Part shown: positions 14,298-20,915 of the stretch, piece by piece
How the letters are laid out: every line of letters starts with the position of its first letter
Numbering within the stretch: position 1 is the first letter of the stretch
Source: a virus
Length of the DNA: 26,338 nt
Strand: one strand, 5' to 3'
Virus record (IMG/VR): IMGVR_UViG_3300048838_001838
Coordinates: 1 to 26,338 of that record
Translations under genes and position numbers: made by a program
The notes under the pieces: model-generated
What the model was told of the DNA's origin: nothing
What the model saw: only the letters and a program-made list of their open reading frames with translations
Database searches by the model: none

Positions 14298-14326
14298 TTG
14301 ACACGATATCACAAGCGCAATATCTT
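14298..14326 (+). promoter_or_regulatory. Rightward early promoter
   Basis: A perfect -35 TTGACA (14298-14303), a 17-base spacer and -10 TATCTT (14321-14326). Transcription should start near 14333, just at the beginning of the 65-bp direct repeat and 30 bases before the first ATG. The spacer contains operator candidate 2. Confidence 0.75.
14305..14324. promoter_or_regulatory. Operator candidate 2 over the early promoter
   Basis: GATATCACAAGCGCAATATC has outer arms GATAT/ATATC and contains the same TATCACAA half-site as operator 1. It covers the spacer and part of the -10 box of the early promoter, so repressor binding there would block RNA polymerase. Confidence 0.6.
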
Positions 14327-14329
14327 GTC

Positions 14330-14394
14330 CCTATAACTTAAGGCTACCAAAAAAGGCGGTTAACATGAATGTCAAGCACAAACTTCAAATCGTA
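14330..14394 (+). repeat. 65-bp direct repeat, copy 1
   Basis: Matches 14866-14930 at 62 of 65 positions without gaps. It includes the 5' untranslated part of the early message, the ribosome site region (AAAGGCGGT), and the first ten codons of a short ORF (MNVKHKLQIV). The last 30 bases are identical. Confidence 0.93.
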
Positions 14395-14757
14395 GTGGCG
14401 GATGCAGTTCTGCCCACCCCAAAAACACCTTCGCAACAACAGCTCGAAGCCGATTTTCTTGCTGCTATTGGCATAGGTACCAGCCCGGCTAATCCTCCCC
14501 AAATTCCTGCATCTCCTGTTTCAGCTTCAGGCGCATCTCCCGAATCTGCTTCTTTTTTGCTTTCGGGTAAATCGGATTGTCTTCCAGATACCGAAACATC
14601 CGCAGTGAAGCAAGTAAGTCCTGGTGCATTCTCTCAACAATCTCGGTTGCAGTTCCAACAGCTATTGCGTCGCATTCGACAGCATGAGAAATGTGTGAGA
14701 GCACATGTGGCGAGATTTTCACTATCGATTGAAGAGATAAAAGGTAATTCTCAATGA
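14365..14757 (+). CDS. First early ORF with MNVKHKLQIV leader, possibly disrupted
   Basis: The open frame encodes 130 residues. Residues 1-10 equal the leader peptide at 14901. Residues 28-40 (LEADFLAAIGIGT) carry the (D/E)FLxA(I/L)G motif shared with the 212-residue protein and the transposase C-terminus. After that the product becomes Pro/Ser-rich and runs entirely antisense to the Cys-motif gene 14489-14845, so the second part may not be under selection. It could be a gene whose 3' part was replaced when the antisense gene arrived. The early promoter and repeat copy 1 lie directly upstream. Confidence 0.4.
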   Translation: MNVKHKLQIVVADAVLPTPKTPSQQQLEADFLAAIGIGTSPANPPQIPASPVSASGASPESASFLLSGKSDCLPDTETSAVKQVSPGAFSQQSRLQFQQLLRRIRQHEKCVRAHVARFSLSIEEIKGNSQ

Positions 14758-14845
14758 AGATACAGGGTACTTCAAACCCCATCCAAAATATACACGTTTC
14801 GCCTAAGCATGGCTTCCCGTTTGCCATTGGGCATCTTTTGTCCAT
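14489..14845 (-). CDS. Small Cys-motif protein encoded against the early operon
   Basis: A 118-residue protein with an N-terminal MDKRCPMANGKPCLGETCIFW, a C-x7-C-x4-C-x-x-W arrangement like that of small metal-binding phage proteins. The remainder is helical (ISHAVECDAIAVGTATEIVE; MHQDLLASLRMFRYLEDN) with a Lys-rich C-terminus (KAKKKQIREMRLKLKQEMQE). A strong GAAGGAGA ribosome site lies ahead of the ATG. It is flanked by the two 65-bp repeats and transcribed opposite to the early genes, so it may be an inserted cassette. No family is assigned. I prefer it over the antisense + strand frame because of composition and ribosome site. Confidence 0.7.
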   Translation of the reverse strand: MDKRCPMANGKPCLGETCIFWMGFEVPCIFIENYLLSLQSIVKISPHVLSHISHAVECDAIAVGTATEIVERMHQDLLASLRMFRYLEDNPIYPKAKKKQIREMRLKLKQEMQEFGED

Positions 14846-14865
14846 TTTTCTTTCTCCTTCAAAAA

Positions 14866-14930
14866 CCTATAACTTAAGACTACAAAAAAAGGCGGTTATC
14901 ATGAATGTCAAGCACAAACTTCAAATCGTA
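14866..14930 (+). repeat. 65-bp direct repeat, copy 2
   Basis: Second copy of the early leader, 536 bp after the first. It differs at three sites. It lacks the promoter found ahead of copy 1, so the duplication includes only transcribed sequence. Confidence 0.93.
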
Positions 14931-14987
14931 ATCTCAGACGCCCCGTCTGCTTCCCCGCAAAGCCACACTACAAGGAGTATCTCATGA
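14901..14987 (+). CDS. 28-residue leader peptide
   Basis: The ORF begins MNVKHKLQIVISDAPSASPQ and ends SHTTRSIS with a stop that overlaps the start of the 212-residue gene (TCATGA). The first ten codons are a duplicate of 14365. Overlap with the next start suggests translational coupling. The ribosome site for the next gene (AAGGAG) is inside this ORF. Confidence 0.5.
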   Translation: MNVKHKLQIVISDAPSASPQSHTTRSIS

Positions 14988-15622
14988 ATTTACAAAAACG
15001 TATCCAACAATCCGCTGCAGAGCTTGGCAAGCTTCTTCGCCAGGCTGAAAAGAAACACCAACGCATCCTCAAGCGTCGTGATGCCAAGATGAAGTCCATT
15101 TCTCCAAAAGCTCCCTGGGTTCCCGATGGACACCTGCTTGTTATCCCTGACCATGTGCCCATCAATATCCACTTCCGAGGTGAATATTCTCATACTGTTA
15201 GTAAGGACGATGCCCTGTTTCTCCTGGATAATGGCAAGCCTTTCAAGCCGATTGGTCTTCGCCAAGACGCAACTCGAGATGAAAATCTAAATCACGATTT
15301 CTTATCTGCTTTGGGGATACCTGAAGCATCCTCTCCGGAAACTAACACCGTGAGAAATGAACGATTTCCCATACAAGAGATGATAGAATTAGAGCCCCAT
15401 ATATTACAAATGGCACAAAAGCTATCATCCTTGCTGGAAGCGTATTTACTCAAAGCTCGTAAGATAAGGGGAATTCATTCCCCCGATCCACGGGAACCGG
15501 TCTTTAACCATCTCCTTGATTTTGATACAAAGGTCTGTGCGATGATATTGTCCTCACGCTTTTCCAGTATTATTCCCAAGCATGTAGAGGGTATTTTCAA
15601 ACGCCTCGATACAAGGTATTAG
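14984..15622 (+). CDS. Early protein with (D/E)FLxA(I/L)G motif, unknown function
   Basis: A 212-residue protein. The first 45 residues form a basic helix (MNLQKRIQQSAAELGKLLRQ, AEKKHQRILKRRDAKMKS), consistent with DNA or RNA binding. Then a compact region (VPDGHLLVIPDHVPINIHFR; DALFLLDNGKPFKPIG), a probably disordered linker with NHDFLSALGIPEASSPE near residues 103-119, and a helical C-terminal domain (LEPHILQMAQKLSSLLEAYL ... CAMILSSRFSSIIPKHVEGI). AAGGAG precedes the ATG. It is the first sizeable early gene. The linker motif matches the transposase C-terminus, which hints at a common partner. No known family was recognised. Confidence 0.7.
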   Translation: MNLQKRIQQSAAELGKLLRQAEKKHQRILKRRDAKMKSISPKAPWVPDGHLLVIPDHVPINIHFRGEYSHTVSKDDALFLLDNGKPFKPIGLRQDATRDENLNHDFLSALGIPEASSPETNTVRNERFPIQEMIELEPHILQMAQKLSSLLEAYLLKARKIRGIHSPDPREPVFNHLLDFDTKVCAMILSSRFSSIIPKHVEGIFKRLDTRY

Positions 15623-15795
15623 TCTTCAATGTTTAGTTCACTGATCTCCCTTGATAACTCTATGGCTGCTCGCAGTTTCTCTGTGAAGATTGAGTGTCCA
15701 ATATGGTTCTTTCCGTCCTGCTTATTAATCTCAATAGCAATAAGCGCTAATAGACTGTTCAGGGTTTTCAGTTCTTTCAAAATGGCTTCATTCAT
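15619..15795 (-). CDS. 58-residue antisense small protein A
   Basis: A short helical protein starting MNEAILKELKTLNSLLALIA and ending LRAAIELSREISELNIED. It ends four bases into the stop of the + strand 212-residue gene (tail to tail). The chosen ATG follows AAGGAGCCTATC; the frame is open 26 codons further but that part corresponds to a leader also found ahead of 16949, where it is not in a matching amino-acid context. No family. It belongs to the set of small - strand genes inside the early region. Confidence 0.6.
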   Translation of the reverse strand: MNEAILKELKTLNSLLALIAIEINKQDGKNHIGHSIFTEKLRAAIELSREISELNIED

Positions 15796-15857
15796 GATAG
15801 GCTCCTTTGTTTCAGTATTTGCGATCACAAACATCGGAGCCTTACCCTTTTTGTCAA
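15796..15857 (-). promoter_or_regulatory. Shared leader of antisense genes, copy A
   Basis: Read leftward it begins TTGACA (15857-15852), then AAAAGGG, AAGGCTCC, ATG(T)TT, and ends AAGGAGCCTATC before the ATG. The same order and spacing occur ahead of the gene starting at 16949. TTGACA with ATGTTT 17 bases later is a possible but weak promoter. Confidence 0.6.
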
Positions 15858-15884
15858 TCTCTTCATCACCCAAAAGGAGTATTT

Positions 15885-16076
15885 ATGAAATCTAAACCCA
15901 TCCTCACCGCAGAAGAAATCCGGGCAGAGCTTGCCCGGCGCAAGATATCCAAGGCGCAGTTATCTCGCGAAACAGGCATCTACTATCAGTACCTGGTAGA
16001 GATTCTCCAGGGTTACCGTCCCGCAGTAGAAATGCGCCGCAAAATCACCACCTTCTTACAGCAGAAAGCATCGTAG
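15885..16076 (+). CDS. Small HTH DNA-binding protein (Cro/Ner-like)
   Basis: A 63-residue protein starting MKSKPILTAEEIRAELARRK, with the helix-turn-helix ISKAQLSRETGIYYQYLVEI then LQGYRPAVEMRRKITTFL. This is a minimal Xre-type fold, as in Cro-like regulators or Mu Ner, that would turn down early or repressor transcription after induction. AAAAGGAG precedes the chosen ATG (an upstream open stretch lies in the antisense leader and is rejected). It is the first + strand gene after antisense gene A. The target operator is not known; TATCACAA sites at 14274-14324 are candidates. Confidence 0.75.
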   Translation: MKSKPILTAEEIRAELARRKISKAQLSRETGIYYQYLVEILQGYRPAVEMRRKITTFLQQKAS

Positions 16077-16084
16077 GGGTAGGC

Positions 16085-16354
16085 ATGAAACTCTTCTCAA
16101 ATTCCATCATCAGTATGCCAATTTCCGGATGCAAAGATTGCCCAAACCGCATCAGTCAGGCTGTCCGTGTCCCACAGGGCTTTCGAACCATCCCCTGCTG
16201 CAAGCTTATCTTTACCACCTGGAATAACCCCCAAAACGCCATAGAACACCGCACCTATGCCAGCGTGGTAGAGCCAATGGCAAACGGGGGCTTCCATCCG
16301 GATTGCCCCCTAACAGATCATGAAATATCCTGTCAGGTTCAGCATAATGACTGA
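16085..16354 (+). CDS. Small Cys-rich protein
   Basis: An 89-residue protein with GCKDCPNR (residues 15-22), IPCCK (37-41) and HPDCPL near the C-terminus, a possible zinc site. AGGGG lies upstream of the ATG, and it begins eight bases after the HTH gene, so it belongs to the early operon. It contains PMANGG, similar to CPMANGKPC in the antisense protein 14489-14845, but this is too short to argue homology. Function unknown. Confidence 0.55.
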   Translation: MKLFSNSIISMPISGCKDCPNRISQAVRVPQGFRTIPCCKLIFTTWNNPQNAIEHRTYASVVEPMANGGFHPDCPLTDHEISCQVQHND

Positions 16355-16541
16355 TATGGCTCTATTGTCCATCTGTATAGCTTTGCCACTATTAGGTATT
16401 CTGCAAGCCATACTTTGGCTCGTTGATGTGCTAAAAAGCGGAAAAGTCACAATTAAAAACCAGATAACTATCACAGTTAAATATCCCAAAGACATCAACG
16501 TATCATTAGAAACACACCCCAAAAAAGGAGAATCAAGTTGA
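16347..16541 (+). CDS. Small membrane protein
   Basis: A 64-residue protein starting MTDMALLSICIALPLLGILQ and continuing AILWLVDVL, one N-terminal membrane segment, followed by a basic region (KSGKVTIKNQITITVKYPKD). The chosen ATG overlaps the preceding stop by eight bases; an in-frame ATG 27 bases upstream is an alternative. It is the last small + strand gene before a 720-base stretch that holds only an antisense gene and regulatory structures. No function is assigned. Confidence 0.5.
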   Translation: MTDMALLSICIALPLLGILQAILWLVDVLKSGKVTIKNQITITVKYPKDINVSLETHPKKGESS

Positions 16542-16949
16542 AAATAGGAACTGATGCATTTTTTCGCATGGCGCATAAAATAGGATGTAGGAGATTATAT
16601 CCTTACAAGGCTTTATTTCGCCTTCTTCGTCTTTATATGCAAGGATTATCCTCTTTCTTGCATCGATACCTTCCAGCCTTTCCAAATTGTGGGTCAATCT
16701 CACCATTACCCCAAAGATTTCTTCTGACCTGCACCCCTTCGGAACCTTCCCCGAATTCACAATGCTCATTGCCAACCGGTTCGTCTCAGCATTACTGCTC
16801 GCAGCCAGTTCTTGAAGATGTTCCGGGCTTTTCCGGCGTTCAATATCTATCAACGCCTGCCTACACGGGTAAAACATCACACTGTATTGAAAAATGGTTT
16901 GCCTCACTTCCGCCACACTTGCTGAAGGATAACTAGTCATGCCATTCAT
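16533..16949 (-). CDS. Antisense early-region protein B (138 aa)
   Basis: The product starts MNGMTSYPSASVAEVRQTIF. It has RQALIDIERRKSPEHLQELA, SSNAETNRLAMSIVNSGKVP, FGVMVRLTHNLERLEGIDA and a C-terminal region DIISYILFYAPCEKMHQF. It is mixed helical with four Cys. The ribosome site AAGGAGCCTATT matches that of antisense gene A. An opposing + strand frame (16538-16936) covers most of it but has a Ser/Pro/Cys-rich composition and no ribosome site, so I take this strand. Ends tail to tail with the small membrane gene. I do not recognise a family. Confidence 0.65.
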   Translation of the reverse strand: MNGMTSYPSASVAEVRQTIFQYSVMFYPCRQALIDIERRKSPEHLQELAASSNAETNRLAMSIVNSGKVPKGCRSEEIFGVMVRLTHNLERLEGIDARKRIILAYKDEEGEIKPCKDIISYILFYAPCEKMHQFLFST

Positions 16950-17012
16950 AATAGGCTCCTTATGTTTTGTTTCTTGCGTTTCCAAGCATGGGAGCCTTCC
17001 CTTTTCTGTCAA
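16950..17012 (-). promoter_or_regulatory. Shared leader of antisense genes, copy B
   Basis: Read leftward it begins TTGACA (17012-17007), then GAAAAGGG, AAGGCTCC, ATGCTT, and ends AAGGAGCCTATT before the ATG. It aligns with copy A (15796-15857) with one length difference. It lies just left of the inverted repeat at 17023. Confidence 0.6.
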
Positions 17013-17022
17013 CCTTGCAGTA

Positions 17023-17117
17023 TTAAAAGCAGCCCAAGACCGAGGCCACGGATATCAGCGCAGATATGGCGCACTCATTAAATCGCGTGGAAGGATTACA
17101 GTTTGGGCTGCTTTTAA
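17023..17117. other. 95-base inverted-repeat element, possible structured RNA or MITE-like unit
   Basis: TTAAAAGCAGCCCAA (17023-17037) and its exact complement TTGGGCTGCTTTTAA (17103-17117) flank 65 bases. Inside, CCACG pairs with CGTGG and GCGC with GCGC, so the unit could fold as a nested stem. It lies in the 315-base gene-free gap 16950-17264 between antisense gene B and the transposase. No T run follows on either strand as expected for a terminator. Confidence 0.65.
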
Positions 17118-17197
17118 GATTGCCCCTCTCTTTTCCTCTTTTACTCTTTTACTCTTTGTTAATCCACTCATCACTTCATCACCATTTTTTAACACAT

Positions 17198-17261
17198 ACC
17201 TCCCCAGGGGTGGGCAGCTCCGGAATACTGCCCACTCCAATTTTATCCGGGGAGCGGAGGT
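17198..17261 (+). promoter_or_regulatory. Hairpin leader that could cover the transposase ribosome site
   Basis: ACCTCC (17198-17203) is complementary to GGAGGT (17256-17261), which is the transposase Shine-Dalgarno. Within it, GTGGGCAG (17210-17217) pairs with CTGCCCAC (17228-17235). An alternative outer pairing is CTCCCC (17200-17205) with GGGGAG (17249-17254), which would leave the ribosome site free. Two exclusive folds suggest control of translation. Confidence 0.5.
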
Positions 17262-17264
17262 AAT

Positions 17265-19673
17265 ATGAATAATCCCAAGCTCATCTCTGTCCAAGAATAT
17301 GCTACTCTCAAAGGCATTAGCCCCAGAGCAGTCCAAAAGGCAATCAGCAAGGGGAAGATACAAGCTATAGTTAAACCACACCCTAAAAGACCAGGACAAG
17401 TTGCATACTTTATCCAGATTGACGAACCAGTAATGGCGAACCAGATTGACGAACCAGTATTGGCGAACCAGATTGACGAACCAGTAATGGCGAACCAGAT
17501 TGACGAACCATGCGAATCCACTGCAACCACTGCAACCACTGAAACCACCGAAACCACCGAAACCACTGAAATCAGTCCATGTGACATGTGCAGATCAGCC
17601 CACCCAAGCTGCCCCAATTGCTGCCGCATCTGCACCTCCCAGTGTAATTCAGGCCAGTTGTGCCACCTTCTGGTAAATCACTCCAAAAAGGCACAAGTAG
17701 ATTTAACCGGACGCCCAAACGGTTGGGAAAAGATATATGATTCCCTTGTAGATACTCCCTTCCTGCGCCCAAAATCTGCCCCCGAAACCACTTACATTGT
17801 ACCCGTAGAGCAGGATGCCAATCCTGCTGAATACCCGATCACGCCAGCACGCCAGCACTCTACATCCCAAGCCCTTGCCCTGCCTTCCGGCACCCTAACC
17901 CTTGGCTCCGGCAAGCTGTCCGAAAAGATGGAAATAATAGCCCTTCGCCGCTCACAGGTCTGCCAGGAGGTTACCCGCCTCATGTCAGCCGAAAAGCTCT
18001 CCCTTAATGCCGCTATCACAGCTTATCTGGATATATACAACACCGGCATGCACCACCCGCTAATCTTTGCCACCCTGGATGCCATCAGCCCCAGCACCCT
18101 CCGCCGTTGGATGGGCTTGTGGGGCAAATCCCGCGATTGGCGCGCACTCGTGCCGGAGTGGAAAAGCGGTAAAGTTGGCCACGAAGTTCCCCTGGATGAT
18201 TTCAATTGGATAATCGGCTTGCTTCATTCCGATGGCAAGCCAGCGGTATCCTCTGCCATCCGCCTCTGGCACACCAAGCTACGCGCTGAAGGTAGAGCCC
18301 AAACTATATCCGATAGAACCATGGAACGCGCCATTTCCGTATTTGCCAAGCGCAACGCCGCCCGTTGGGCATATATGCGCCGCGGGTCTAAATACTTCCG
18401 GGAACACTACCTCCCCAGCATCCTTATTGATGGAAGTTCCATCAGGACTGGTGATCTGTGGTATTCAGATGGCTGTGTGTGCAACTTTCTGGTCTGGAAT
18501 CCTTACACCAACAAGCCTTGCCGTCCCACCTTCGTGCCTTTTCTGGATTACGCTTCGCGCATGGTGGTGGGCTTCGATCTGGATTTCACGGAGAACCGCC
18601 GCGTAATCAGCTCCGCCTATCGCAATGCCATCACGCTTTGGGGCTTTGTTCCGCTCTACATCAAGTGGGATAATGGCAAGGCTTACAAGGCTCTCTCCGG
18701 AAAGAATGTCACCCGCGCCCAATTAGAAGAGATCAAACAACTGGAGCGTGATGAAATAGCCGAAATAGTGGGTAATATCTACGCCACCGGTGTGCAAGAC
18801 ATCCTGGATTCCCTTCCCTACAATCCCACCGGTAAAGCCCCTATGGAACGCTTCTTTGGCACTTTTGACAACGGCTTGGAACGTTATCTGCCAAATTACC
18901 TGGGTAATTCCATTGTCGATAAACCTGCCTCCCGCATGCGCAACGAAAAAGACCTGCAGGAGATTTCTGCCAAGCTGAAGGGGAATAACTACCTCACCAT
19001 GAACGAGGCAAAACTGCTTATCAATTGGTGGATTCTGGATGTTTATGGCATGGAGCCCAACGATGGCTTAAACGGCCGCCGTCCCCTGGAAGTGTGGCAG
19101 GAGGGTATTGCTAAAATTGCCCCGGAACGCAAACGCAATCCTGATGAACTCTGGTATCTCATGCTGTCCACCGAAGTAAAAAAGCTGGATCGTAATGGCG
19201 TTAAAGTCCGCGGTATTCATTACTATCACGAGTCATTAATAGACTATATAGATCGCAAGGTTTATGTACGCTACGATCAAATGGACGATCGCTATGTTTT
19301 CGTTTATGACGAAGCCAAAAACCCCATCTGTCGCGCTTTGGCACGTGTGGAGCACGATCCTCTGGCAACCGTTCGCGGTACCGAAGACGAAAAGCTTCGC
19401 CTGGTAAATGAGCTGAAGTTCCGCCGACAGCAGGAAAAGAAAACCCGCAAAGAAGCTCACAAGCTCGCCGACATGACCCTTGGCAACGGTATGTTTCTTC
19501 AAGACGCTGTGGCAAAGGTTTCTTCTATGCCGGCAAAGCTTACCAATGTTGGCAGTGAGTTGCCTTCTTTGCCCCAGTCGCCTGCTCCCATCCCCAATGA
19601 GCCGGATATAAAACCCGAATCCACAGAGGTGCTTTCCCGTGAGTTCCTCGATGCTATCGGTGTAAATCACTAA
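17265..19673 (+). CDS. MuA-like DDE transposase
   Basis: Catalyses strand transfer for replicative transposition. The 802-residue product starts with a short HTH (ISVQEYATLKGISPRAVQKA), then four copies of a QIDEPVMAN-type repeat (51-83), a Thr/Glu repeat (85-102), and an eight-Cys cluster (C106 to C133). The catalytic core has Asp402 (WYSDG), Asp469 (IKWDNGKAY) and Glu528 (PMERFF); the 67-residue Asp-Asp distance equals that of MuA (269 to 336). The C-terminus is Pro-rich and ends SREFLDAIGVNH. GGAGG is four bases from the ATG, inside a possible hairpin. The MuB-like gene follows after 22 bases. MuA is about 660 residues, so the extra length is mostly the repeats and the Cys cluster. Confidence 0.93.
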   Translation: MNNPKLISVQEYATLKGISPRAVQKAISKGKIQAIVKPHPKRPGQVAYFIQIDEPVMANQIDEPVLANQIDEPVMANQIDEPCESTATTATTETTETTETTEISPCDMCRSAHPSCPNCCRICTSQCNSGQLCHLLVNHSKKAQVDLTGRPNGWEKIYDSLVDTPFLRPKSAPETTYIVPVEQDANPAEYPITPARQHSTSQALALPSGTLTLGSGKLSEKMEIIALRRSQVCQEVTRLMSAEKLSLNAAITAYLDIYNTGMHHPLIFATLDAISPSTLRRWMGLWGKSRDWRALVPEWKSGKVGHEVPLDDFNWIIGLLHSDGKPAVSSAIRLWHTKLRAEGRAQTISDRTMERAISVFAKRNAARWAYMRRGSKYFREHYLPSILIDGSSIRTGDLWYSDGCVCNFLVWNPYTNKPCRPTFVPFLDYASRMVVGFDLDFTENRRVISSAYRNAITLWGFVPLYIKWDNGKAYKALSGKNVTRAQLEEIKQLERDEIAEIVGNIYATGVQDILDSLPYNPTGKAPMERFFGTFDNGLERYLPNYLGNSIVDKPASRMRNEKDLQEISAKLKGNNYLTMNEAKLLINWWILDVYGMEPNDGLNGRRPLEVWQEGIAKIAPERKRNPDELWYLMLSTEVKKLDRNGVKVRGIHYYHESLIDYIDRKVYVRYDQMDDRYVFVYDEAKNPICRALARVEHDPLATVRGTEDEKLRLVNELKFRRQQEKKTRKEAHKLADMTLGNGMFLQDAVAKVSSMPAKLTNVGSELPSLPQSPAPIPNEPDIKPESTEVLSREFLDAIGVNH
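17415..17510 (+). repeat. 27-bp tandem repeat within the transposase gene
   Basis: Three full and one partial (15-base) copies of a 27-bp unit starting CAGATTGACGAACCAG, encoding QIDEPV(M/L)AN. Copies begin at 17415, 17442, 17469 and 17496. Near identity at the DNA level points to recent expansion. A 9-bp array encoding Thr-Thr-Glu follows (about 17521-17568). Confidence 0.95.
17844..17859. repeat. Octamer repeat, two-unit copy in coding sequence
   Basis: CCAGCACG and CCAGCACT within the transposase gene (encoding part of TPARQHST). They match the CCAGNACN unit of the two left-arm arrays at 10302 and 10748. Confidence 0.45.
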
Positions 19674-19695: not shown

Positions 19696-20445
19696 ATGAA
19701 CAGCCATCTGCTTGTTAAAACCAAGAACGTTGAACGTGGTCTGGAGTGCCTTTCTTACATCCTCTCCCGCCCGGTTGCGCACCAGGTTGGCATGGGTATG
19801 ATCTATGGCAGGCCGGGATTGGGCAAAACCCAGTTTTCCATGCGCTATGCCATTGAGAACGATTGTGTGTATTTCAGCGCACTTAAAGCCAGCACACCAA
19901 AGAGCTTCACGGTGGAGCTGCTTCGCAAACTGCGTGAGCGTTACGAGCCAACTCGCTGCGAACCGATTGTAGGCCCAAAAGCCCGCCTCTTCAGAGACAT
20001 CCTGGATACCATTAATCTGAATACCTCCAAGGATCACATGCCCGTTATCATCATCGATGAGGTAGATAACATCATCCACTACCCGCATGAAGAGATTATC
20101 GGCATGCTCCGTGATATCGCCGACAACACCGTTGCCGGGGTTGTTCTGGTTGGCATGCAAGACCTGCGTGAGAAAGTGATGAAGCTAAACTCTCACTACT
20201 ACAATCGCTTCATCTATTTTGCCGAGTTCAAGCCTCTCTCCGATAACGATGTGCTTATGATGTGTGCAGAACTGTCAACCGTCACTATATCCCCCGATTT
20301 AGCACGCTACACAAACGAAAAACCCCAGGCCGGTGGTGACGCCCGCAAGGTAATTAAAGCCATACGGCTATATGAGGAGATCGCCTGTAAGCTATCTCTC
20401 AAAAGCATAGACTTAAATACTTATCAAAAGGTGGTAGGAAAATGA
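19696..20445 (+). CDS. MuB-like AAA+ ATPase, transposition target activator
   Basis: A 249-residue ATPase with Walker A GRPGLGKT (38-45), Walker B VIIIDEVD (117-124), a sensor-like VVLVGMQDL, and RNP-free C-terminal helices (GGDARKVIKAIRLYEEIACK). In Mu, MuB binds target DNA, recruits MuA and gives target immunity. Position directly after the transposase supports this role. It is shorter than MuB (312) and lacks the separate N-terminal HTH domain; the next gene, which overlaps its stop (ATGA), encodes winged-helix-like segments. AAAGGAGAATT precedes the ATG. Confidence 0.9.
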   Translation: MNSHLLVKTKNVERGLECLSYILSRPVAHQVGMGMIYGRPGLGKTQFSMRYAIENDCVYFSALKASTPKSFTVELLRKLRERYEPTRCEPIVGPKARLFRDILDTINLNTSKDHMPVIIIDEVDNIIHYPHEEIIGMLRDIADNTVAGVVLVGMQDLREKVMKLNSHYYNRFIYFAEFKPLSDNDVLMMCAELSTVTISPDLARYTNEKPQAGGDARKVIKAIRLYEEIACKLSLKSIDLNTYQKVVGK

Positions 20446-20915
20446 TTCAAACTTCAGATCATGAAATCATATCCCGTTATCGCCGGGTAAAAGGCTCCGG
20501 ATTATTCGATATCGATGATTTCAGTGCCGTTACCGGTTACCCAATAACCCGCGTTTTAGAGATCATGGAAAAGCTGGAAGTCTCCGGAGAGGTTGTCCGT
20601 TTTGGCCAGGGTGTCTATCTGCTAAAGCCCGTCATTCAAGCCAAGCCGGTCTTCAAGTATGATTGGCAACCCCAACAGGATAAGCTTGAAGTACTATGGT
20701 CTATGTTATCTACTCGCCGCTGGACAAGTAAGCAAGACATCATAAAACGCTGGAAGTATAGCGATACCGCACTTACCCGTTACCTCAGGGCATTAAGGCT
20801 ATCTGGCAACATTAAGTATAAAATGGATGAAAAACAGTCATTCTATCAGAAATCTAAACCCAAAATGCAACTAATCCCATCATGGCAAGAACTTACAAGG
20901 AGGAACAATGCCTAA
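20442..20915 (+). CDS. Winged-helix-like early protein
   Basis: A 157-residue protein. Two helix-turn-helix/winged segments are suggested: FDIDDFSAVTGYPITRVLEI, continuing MEKLEVSGEVVRFGQGVYLL (residues about 22-62), and LEVLWSMLSTRRWTSKQDII, continuing KRWKYSDTALTRYLRALRLS (about 82-122). It overlaps the MuB-like gene by four bases and the endolysin gene by eight, so it is in the transposition operon. It could be a DNA-binding partner of the ATPase or a regulator. No specific family is recognised. Confidence 0.65.
   Translation: MIQTSDHEIISRYRRVKGSGLFDIDDFSAVTGYPITRVLEIMEKLEVSGEVVRFGQGVYLLKPVIQAKPVFKYDWQPQQDKLEVLWSMLSTRRWTSKQDIIKRWKYSDTALTRYLRALRLSGNIKYKMDEKQSFYQKSKPKMQLIPSWQELTRRNNA

Follow-up and report, generated by a model that had tools for sequence, protein, structure and literature searches.

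In the type V-K CRISPR-associated transposon ShCAST, the last 15 residues of the transposase TnsB dock on and decorate the ATPase TnsC, the linker before them is unconserved, and removal of this hook abolishes transposition (PMC9371665). Comparable roles have been described for the C-terminus of MuA and for the final 22 residues of Tn7 TnsB (PMC9371665, PMC9876797), and in PseCAST the hook binds where the alpha/beta core meets the helical bundle, via Trp605, Leu609 and Phe612 (PMC13228271). For phage Mu, work cited in PMC9371665 indicates that the MuA C-terminus (domain III) is needed for the interaction with MuB. Here we analyzed a contig of 26,338 bases (IMG/VR record IMGVR_UViG_3300048838_001838; "the window" refers to this whole stretch) from a Mu-like virus of Cloacimonadota bacteria, in which the C-terminal peptide of the Mu-type transposase recurs in two other early proteins. 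It has close relatives within genomes titled Cloacimonadota or Cloacimonetes (best segments 84%, 63% and 60% identity) and in two IMG/VR contigs. A repressor gene on the minus strand is followed on the plus strand by the open reading frame (ORF) at 14365, a 212-residue ORF, small ORFs, and the genes for the transposase, an ATPase, a winged-helix protein, a GemA-like protein and Gam. The features that carry the analysis are the following, G001 being the genome of the closest relative.

17265..19673, plus strand: Mu-type DDE transposase, 802 amino acids (phrog_310, E = 3.4e-73; Pfam Mu-transpos_C, PF09299, E = 3.2e-14)
19641..19664, plus strand: transposase hook EFLDAIGV at residues 793-800, with two further residues before the stop
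14365..14757, plus strand: first early ORF ("leader"), at most 130 amino acids; start, ribosome-binding site (RBS), promoter and N-terminus kept in G001
14452..14475, plus strand: hook-like motif of the leader, DFLAAIGI, residues 30-37; same residues in G001
14984..15622, plus strand: 212-residue early protein with an N-terminal helix, a probable RNase H core remnant (PDG ... DNGKP) and a hook-like peptide
15296..15319, plus strand: hook-like motif of the 212-residue protein, DFLSALGI, residues 105-112; unmatched in score by any of 530,758 background windows; not kept in G001
19696..20445, plus strand: MuB/TnsC-type AAA+ ATPase, 249 residues, candidate docking partner (TniB, E = 2.8e-9; AAA_22)

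The original prediction had reported a short peptide shared by three early proteins, and all copies were found where it placed them, in frame and on the plus strand: EADFLAAIGIG in ORF 14365 (residues 28-38, 14446-14478), NHDFLSALGIP in the 212-residue ORF (residues 103-113, 15290-15322) and SREFLDAIGVNH in the transposase (residues 791-802, 19635-19670), with the stop codon directly after the last. Five other phages (L002, L003, L005, L006 and L017) supplied the transposase tails on which the regular expression [DE][FY]L.A[IL]G[IV] was built; their equivalent sequence is REFLDAIG[IV] or PDYLDALGI. The expression found nothing in the non-transposase ORFs of related loci (577,948 residues), and among the 7,936 residues of predicted proteins in the window it matched exactly the three reported sites, two of them within the 2,653 early non-transposase residues. 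Shuffled early proteins of the window gave a mean of 0.0003 matches, and a much looser pattern gave a probability of at least two matches of 0.001. The open position of the strict expression was picked after the window had been seen, while a profile of the tails of other phages is independent of that choice; with this profile the two extra copies scored 16.3 and 15.6, and none of the 530,758 background windows reached either value. The three peptides are thus beyond chance. The codons of the leader motif are unlike those of the transposase tail, so that the leader motif is not a recent DNA copy.

The transposase has a DDE core with a Mu-transpos_C domain, and relatives of it were detected in 40 of the 125 host-phylum genomes searched. 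Although these proteins are often only about 26-35% identical, their C-termini are alike (KSFDEMLKFIGIK, EEFKKMLKTIGIK, PREFLDAIGV, SRAELLKRIGIN, SFAEMLRLAGIR and SFYSMLKKTGII). Among 47 distinct Mu-type transposases, 46 carry the hook, [F/L]xx[E][M/F]LxxIG[I/V] over about 11 residues, with 0-4 residues between it and the C-terminus; the tail of L102 was included in this count only for its terminal G-I. With the last 60 residues left out of the tree, one clade (support 0.97) took in all of the 47 but L102, and 45 of these 46 carry the hook. Pairs at 28% core identity share 31% of the ten-residue hook and 8% of the preceding 40 residues. After removal of the anchoring glycine and the next residue, hook identity over the eight residues ahead of the glycine was still 20-34%, compared with 8-10% for shuffled hooks (core 26-50%), and the linker before the hook showed 7-9% identity in pairs with about 28-50% core identity. 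Conservation of the hook is therefore about as strong as in the catalytic core, and that of the 40 residues upstream is at chance level. This linker is acidic and proline-rich, enriched in D, E, P and Q, with almost no aromatic residues. Presence of the hook across the clade next to so divergent a linker indicates that the peptide was present in the ancestor of the clade and was kept while the linker changed freely. The only clade member lacking the hook is L106 (L106:8350-10611), in which the transposase frame continues without a break into a winged-helix domain resembling the one encoded by the third gene, and both hook and ATPase are missing; it is probably a deletion derivative that lost the two together, and so it provides no independent test. 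It is well supported by these alignments that the motif represents a conserved, docking-type C-terminal peptide of this transposase clade, and on the same comparisons the motif has its origin in the transposase.

Just after the N-terminal helix-turn-helix (HTH), each transposase examined also contains an in-frame tandem repeat, at 17414-17576 in the window. Its units are NQIDEPVMA plus TAT/TTE in the window, NHD in L002, TDA in L003, CEP in L005, TADTQ-like in L006, and NHD plus CEP in L103.

The ATPase encoded downstream gave an AlphaFold2 (AF2) model with a predicted local distance difference test score (pLDDT) of 90.7 (11 sequences). The best structural match of this model in the PDB was MuB filaments (8xvb; Z 21.0, root-mean-square deviation 2.6, 222 residues), followed by ShCAST TnsC (7plh, Z 18.9), and TnsC bound to a TnsAB hook (9gmz, Z 16.8) also ranked high. 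All of the top five rows were MuB and TnsC chains, so that the modeled protein has an AAA+ fold closest to MuB and TnsC. The N-terminal HTH of MuB was not found, as the ATPase aligns from its residue 1 onward to MuB 69-299. The gene adjoins nearly all intact hook-bearing transposases, so that the three marks of a TnsB-type hook occur together, namely a conserved C-terminal peptide, an unconserved flexible linker and an adjacent TnsC/MuB-type AAA+ ATPase. Fold, gene order and precedent support this ATPase as the partner of the hook, which we infer would dock on it. In this layout the phage resembles the TnsB hooks on TnsC of Tn7, type V-K ShCAST, type I-B PmcCAST and type I-F PseCAST. The majority form of the hook even places F, L and I at i, i+4 and i+7, the spacing of the hydrophobic anchors of PseCAST (PMC13228271), although in so short a motif this match may be coincidence. 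The hook here differs from TnsB hooks in its ending, LxxIG[I/V], in belonging to a Mu-like phage and in the presence of the peptide in further early proteins, and it is known from sequence. Phage Mu itself offers the same gene order, with a Mu-type transposase followed by a MuB-fold ATPase, but the ATPase here is without the MuB N-terminal HTH domain. The ATPase also has a hook-like segment of its own at residues 98-108 (19987-20019), LFRDILDTINL, the fourth-best profile match in the window, with 25 of the 530,758 background windows scoring as high; in L002, REILDTLN may be compared with REFLDAIG. This segment may be due to chance, or may be a sign that the hook mimics a contact between ATPases.

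Contig C122 of G001 holds an early region that matches that of the window, with the same promoter spacing and the same RBS context. Its leader (L100:1788-2048, minus strand) has 86 residues and begins with MNVKHK, as does ORF 14365. At residues 30-37 the two leaders align without gaps, SFLSALGM in G001 with DFLAAIGI in the window, with 4 of 8 positions identical and two conservative, while only 6 of 23 are identical over residues 7-29. The leader as aligned thus carries a hook peptide whose position is shared by its nearest homologue. The G001 leader has a second copy, DYLDALGK, at residues 46-53, 16 residues on, and its two peptides rank 51st and 11th among the 530,758 background windows. A protein search with the leader over the 125 genomes gave G001 as the one convincing match. 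The N-terminus also occurs in L002:22 (MNVKHK) and L103:2168 (MNVKNK). Besides L002, a DNA-pattern search of viral contigs returned five matches, which on translation proved to be chance.

The original prediction had further held that the three proteins share nothing else. For the 212-residue protein and the transposase this does not hold, as the G001 homologue of the former (E = 3.3e-11, 47% identity over the aligned part) matches the transposase catalytic core with a local score of 89, against 33 +/- 4.6 for shuffled sequences (12 standard deviations). The alignment spans from FREHY to the helix after DNGK, with 33% identity over 60 residues; in the G001 homologue the first catalytic Asp is replaced by E and the second (DNG) is retained. 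The protein of the window itself retains WVPDG and DNGKP, but compared directly with the transposase it stayed below significance, and the kinship rests on G001. In addition, of the 22 nt at DNGKPFK (15226-15247), 20 are identical to the corresponding segment of the transposase gene (18668-18689). No homologue was obtained from the viral contigs or annotated phages searched, and an AF2 model of the protein alone (pLDDT 44.9) was too low for use. The 212-residue protein is thus best seen as what probably remains of a transposase core, joined in this phage by a hook-like peptide. Tn5 Inh and the P-element KP protein are transposase-derived inhibitors, and the 212-residue protein resembles them in its kinship to a transposase core that is shortened and probably inactive, so it could be a decoy. 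Unlike them, it keeps a catalytic-core remnant only, with a new N-terminal helix, and any inhibition by it is hypothetical.

We favor, at a probability of roughly 0.55, the reading that the hook of the transposase docks on the MuB-like ATPase and that the leader, and more weakly the 212-residue protein, mimics this hook. The transposase hook would dock, as a short helix, on the ATPase encoded just downstream and so bring the transposase to ATPase-coated target DNA, as TnsB hooks do on TnsC. The leader, which is small, probably disordered and the first product of the early operon after derepression, could fill the groove of the ATPase that receives this hook, ahead of or during the build-up of transposase. 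Such binding would buffer, delay or limit recruitment of the transposase early after derepression; equally well, the leader might tether itself to the ATPase. A role of the 212-residue protein as a second decoy would be a weak step. We hypothesize that the early proteins compete with the transposase for the ATPase. The wider proposal, that Mu-like phages of Cloacimonadota regulate transposition by phage-encoded hook mimics, a small disordered leader with one or two hook peptides and a transposase-derived decoy with another, competing with the transposase for the MuB-like ATPase, is put forward as tentative. Genuine mimicry by the early proteins would make them natural competitors of the contact between transposase and ATPase, a kind of control that was not found described in the literature searched. 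For the hook itself, a likely docking peptide of a whole Mu-type transposase clade can be defined from sequence alone, and the layout of a hook on a loose linker extends from Tn7 and CRISPR-associated transposons to Mu-like phages. Because no MuA-MuB structure was available as of 2022 (PMC9371665), the peptide of about 11 residues and the compact ATPase of 249 residues would make a convenient test system.

Several observations weigh against this reading. The homologue check came out divided for the leader, as the motif is kept at the same residues in G001 but absent from the more distant leaders of L002 and L103, which limits its conservation to one pair. Past about residue 42, moreover, the minus strand opposite the leader frame holds a conserved Cys-containing gene (14489-14845), so that the length of the leader beyond this point is uncertain; the motif lies before the overlap. 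In the 212-residue protein the motif drifts, since its close homologue in G001 has EAIADQLGIAE at the place of the hook, with a profile score of -1.0. The tail is lacking from Mu-like phages of other phyla despite their MuB-type ATPases (eight were examined and their C-termini are without the motif, MuA standing outside that comparison), hence the peptide is clade-specific, and the ATPase of HS6 matches the ATPase family described here, yet the hook is absent. Across phyla, the relation of hook to ATPase type is confounded by descent, because the hook clade is monophyletic. The main rival draws on some of these facts. It holds that the transposase hook alone is functional and that the other two copies are leftovers of short recombination or duplication events, or chance helices. 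The case of the 212-residue protein strengthens it, this protein being related to a decayed transposase core with a motif not kept in G001, and the early region is recombinogenic, as a duplication of 76 nt attests. The leader weakens it, as the motif there has stayed at precisely the same residues although the protein diverges fast, and it occurs twice in G001, and its codons are unlike those of the transposase tail and speak against a recent DNA copy; two chance matches would have odds of about 1e-3 or less. Taken as a whole, we regard this explanation as rather unlikely.

The partner, too, could be another than the ATPase. The original prediction had named either a MuB-like ATPase or a host unfoldase, and the conserved docking-type tail and the neighbor of MuB/TnsC fold speak for the former, while the unfoldase branch fared badly. 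ClpX remodels MuA through the MuA C-terminus, and the transposase copy of the motif is likewise C-terminal, so one could suppose that the motif is a tag by which early proteins are removed or remodeled together. The known ClpX tag of MuA is, however, unlike the hook peptide, and two of the three copies in the window are internal. As a host background we used 1.2 Mb, about half of one host-phylum chromosome, with a simple longest-ORF gene set of 885 proteins. A high-scoring C-terminal hook was found there only in two Mu-type transposases; one additional C-terminal profile match was without the glycine, and no other protein ends in the motif. The sharing with host proteins at the extreme C-terminus that would mark a ClpX tag was thus not found in this set, and confinement of the C-terminal hook to Mu-type transposases argues against a general host tag and for a partner encoded by the element. 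A host tag is accordingly the least probable of the explanations. Binding to a different phage protein, such as the winged-helix protein (20442-20915), appears scarcely more probable. That protein is the next conserved neighbor, and in several relatives its own C-terminus is hook-like (ITFDTFLKRKGLE, L072 and L127), but the hooks known in related systems bind an AAA+ ATPase.

The remaining features of the region are listed below.

20442-20915: winged-helix protein, third gene
14298..14326, plus strand: predicted early promoter, TTGACA-17-TATCTT (scan 10/12), divergent from the repressor gene
14330..14405, plus strand: duplicated block, copy 1 (direct repeat), with 5' leader, RBS (AGGCGG), ATG and the MNVKHKLQIV codons
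14866..14941, plus strand: duplicated block, copy 2 (direct repeat), opening a 28-codon ORF, MNVKHKLQIVISDAPSASPQSHTTRSIS
14489..14845, minus strand: conserved Cys-containing gene (CPMA....CL...C.FW), with homologous minus-strand ORFs at L002:89-520 and L052:15378-15857 and a match in G013 (E = 1.1e-4)

Hook-like C-termini of the winged-helix gene occur in L072:4493-5167 (minus strand), L127:3415-4089, L062:741-1502 (minus strand), L123:3088-3804 and L126:5023-5721. The ends are ITFDTFLKRKGLE (L072 and L127), IKFETFLKRKGLE and LSFDEYLKNCNTSK; profile scores were 15.1 and 15.0 for the first two, among the highest outside the transposases, and weak for the others.

The early promoter is putatively assigned at 14298..14326 from its consensus, and its 17-nt spacing and a sequence block are common to the window and its relative G001 in the alignment. 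The block of 76 nt, comprising RBS, start codon and MNVKHKLQIV, is present twice at 89% identity (14330-14405 and 14866-14941). Copy 1 starts ORF 14365 and contains ATGAATGTCAAGCACAAA, which is identical across four sequences, and copy 2 lies just upstream of the 212-residue ORF. The 28-codon ORF opened by copy 2 ends across the start codon of the 212-residue gene (ATGA), an arrangement resembling translational coupling. The Cys-containing family (CPMA....CL...C.F[FW]) lies antisense to the leader in the window and in L002, in the same relative phase, and is located elsewhere in L052; the plus-strand frame opposite this gene is open for about 90-120 codons.

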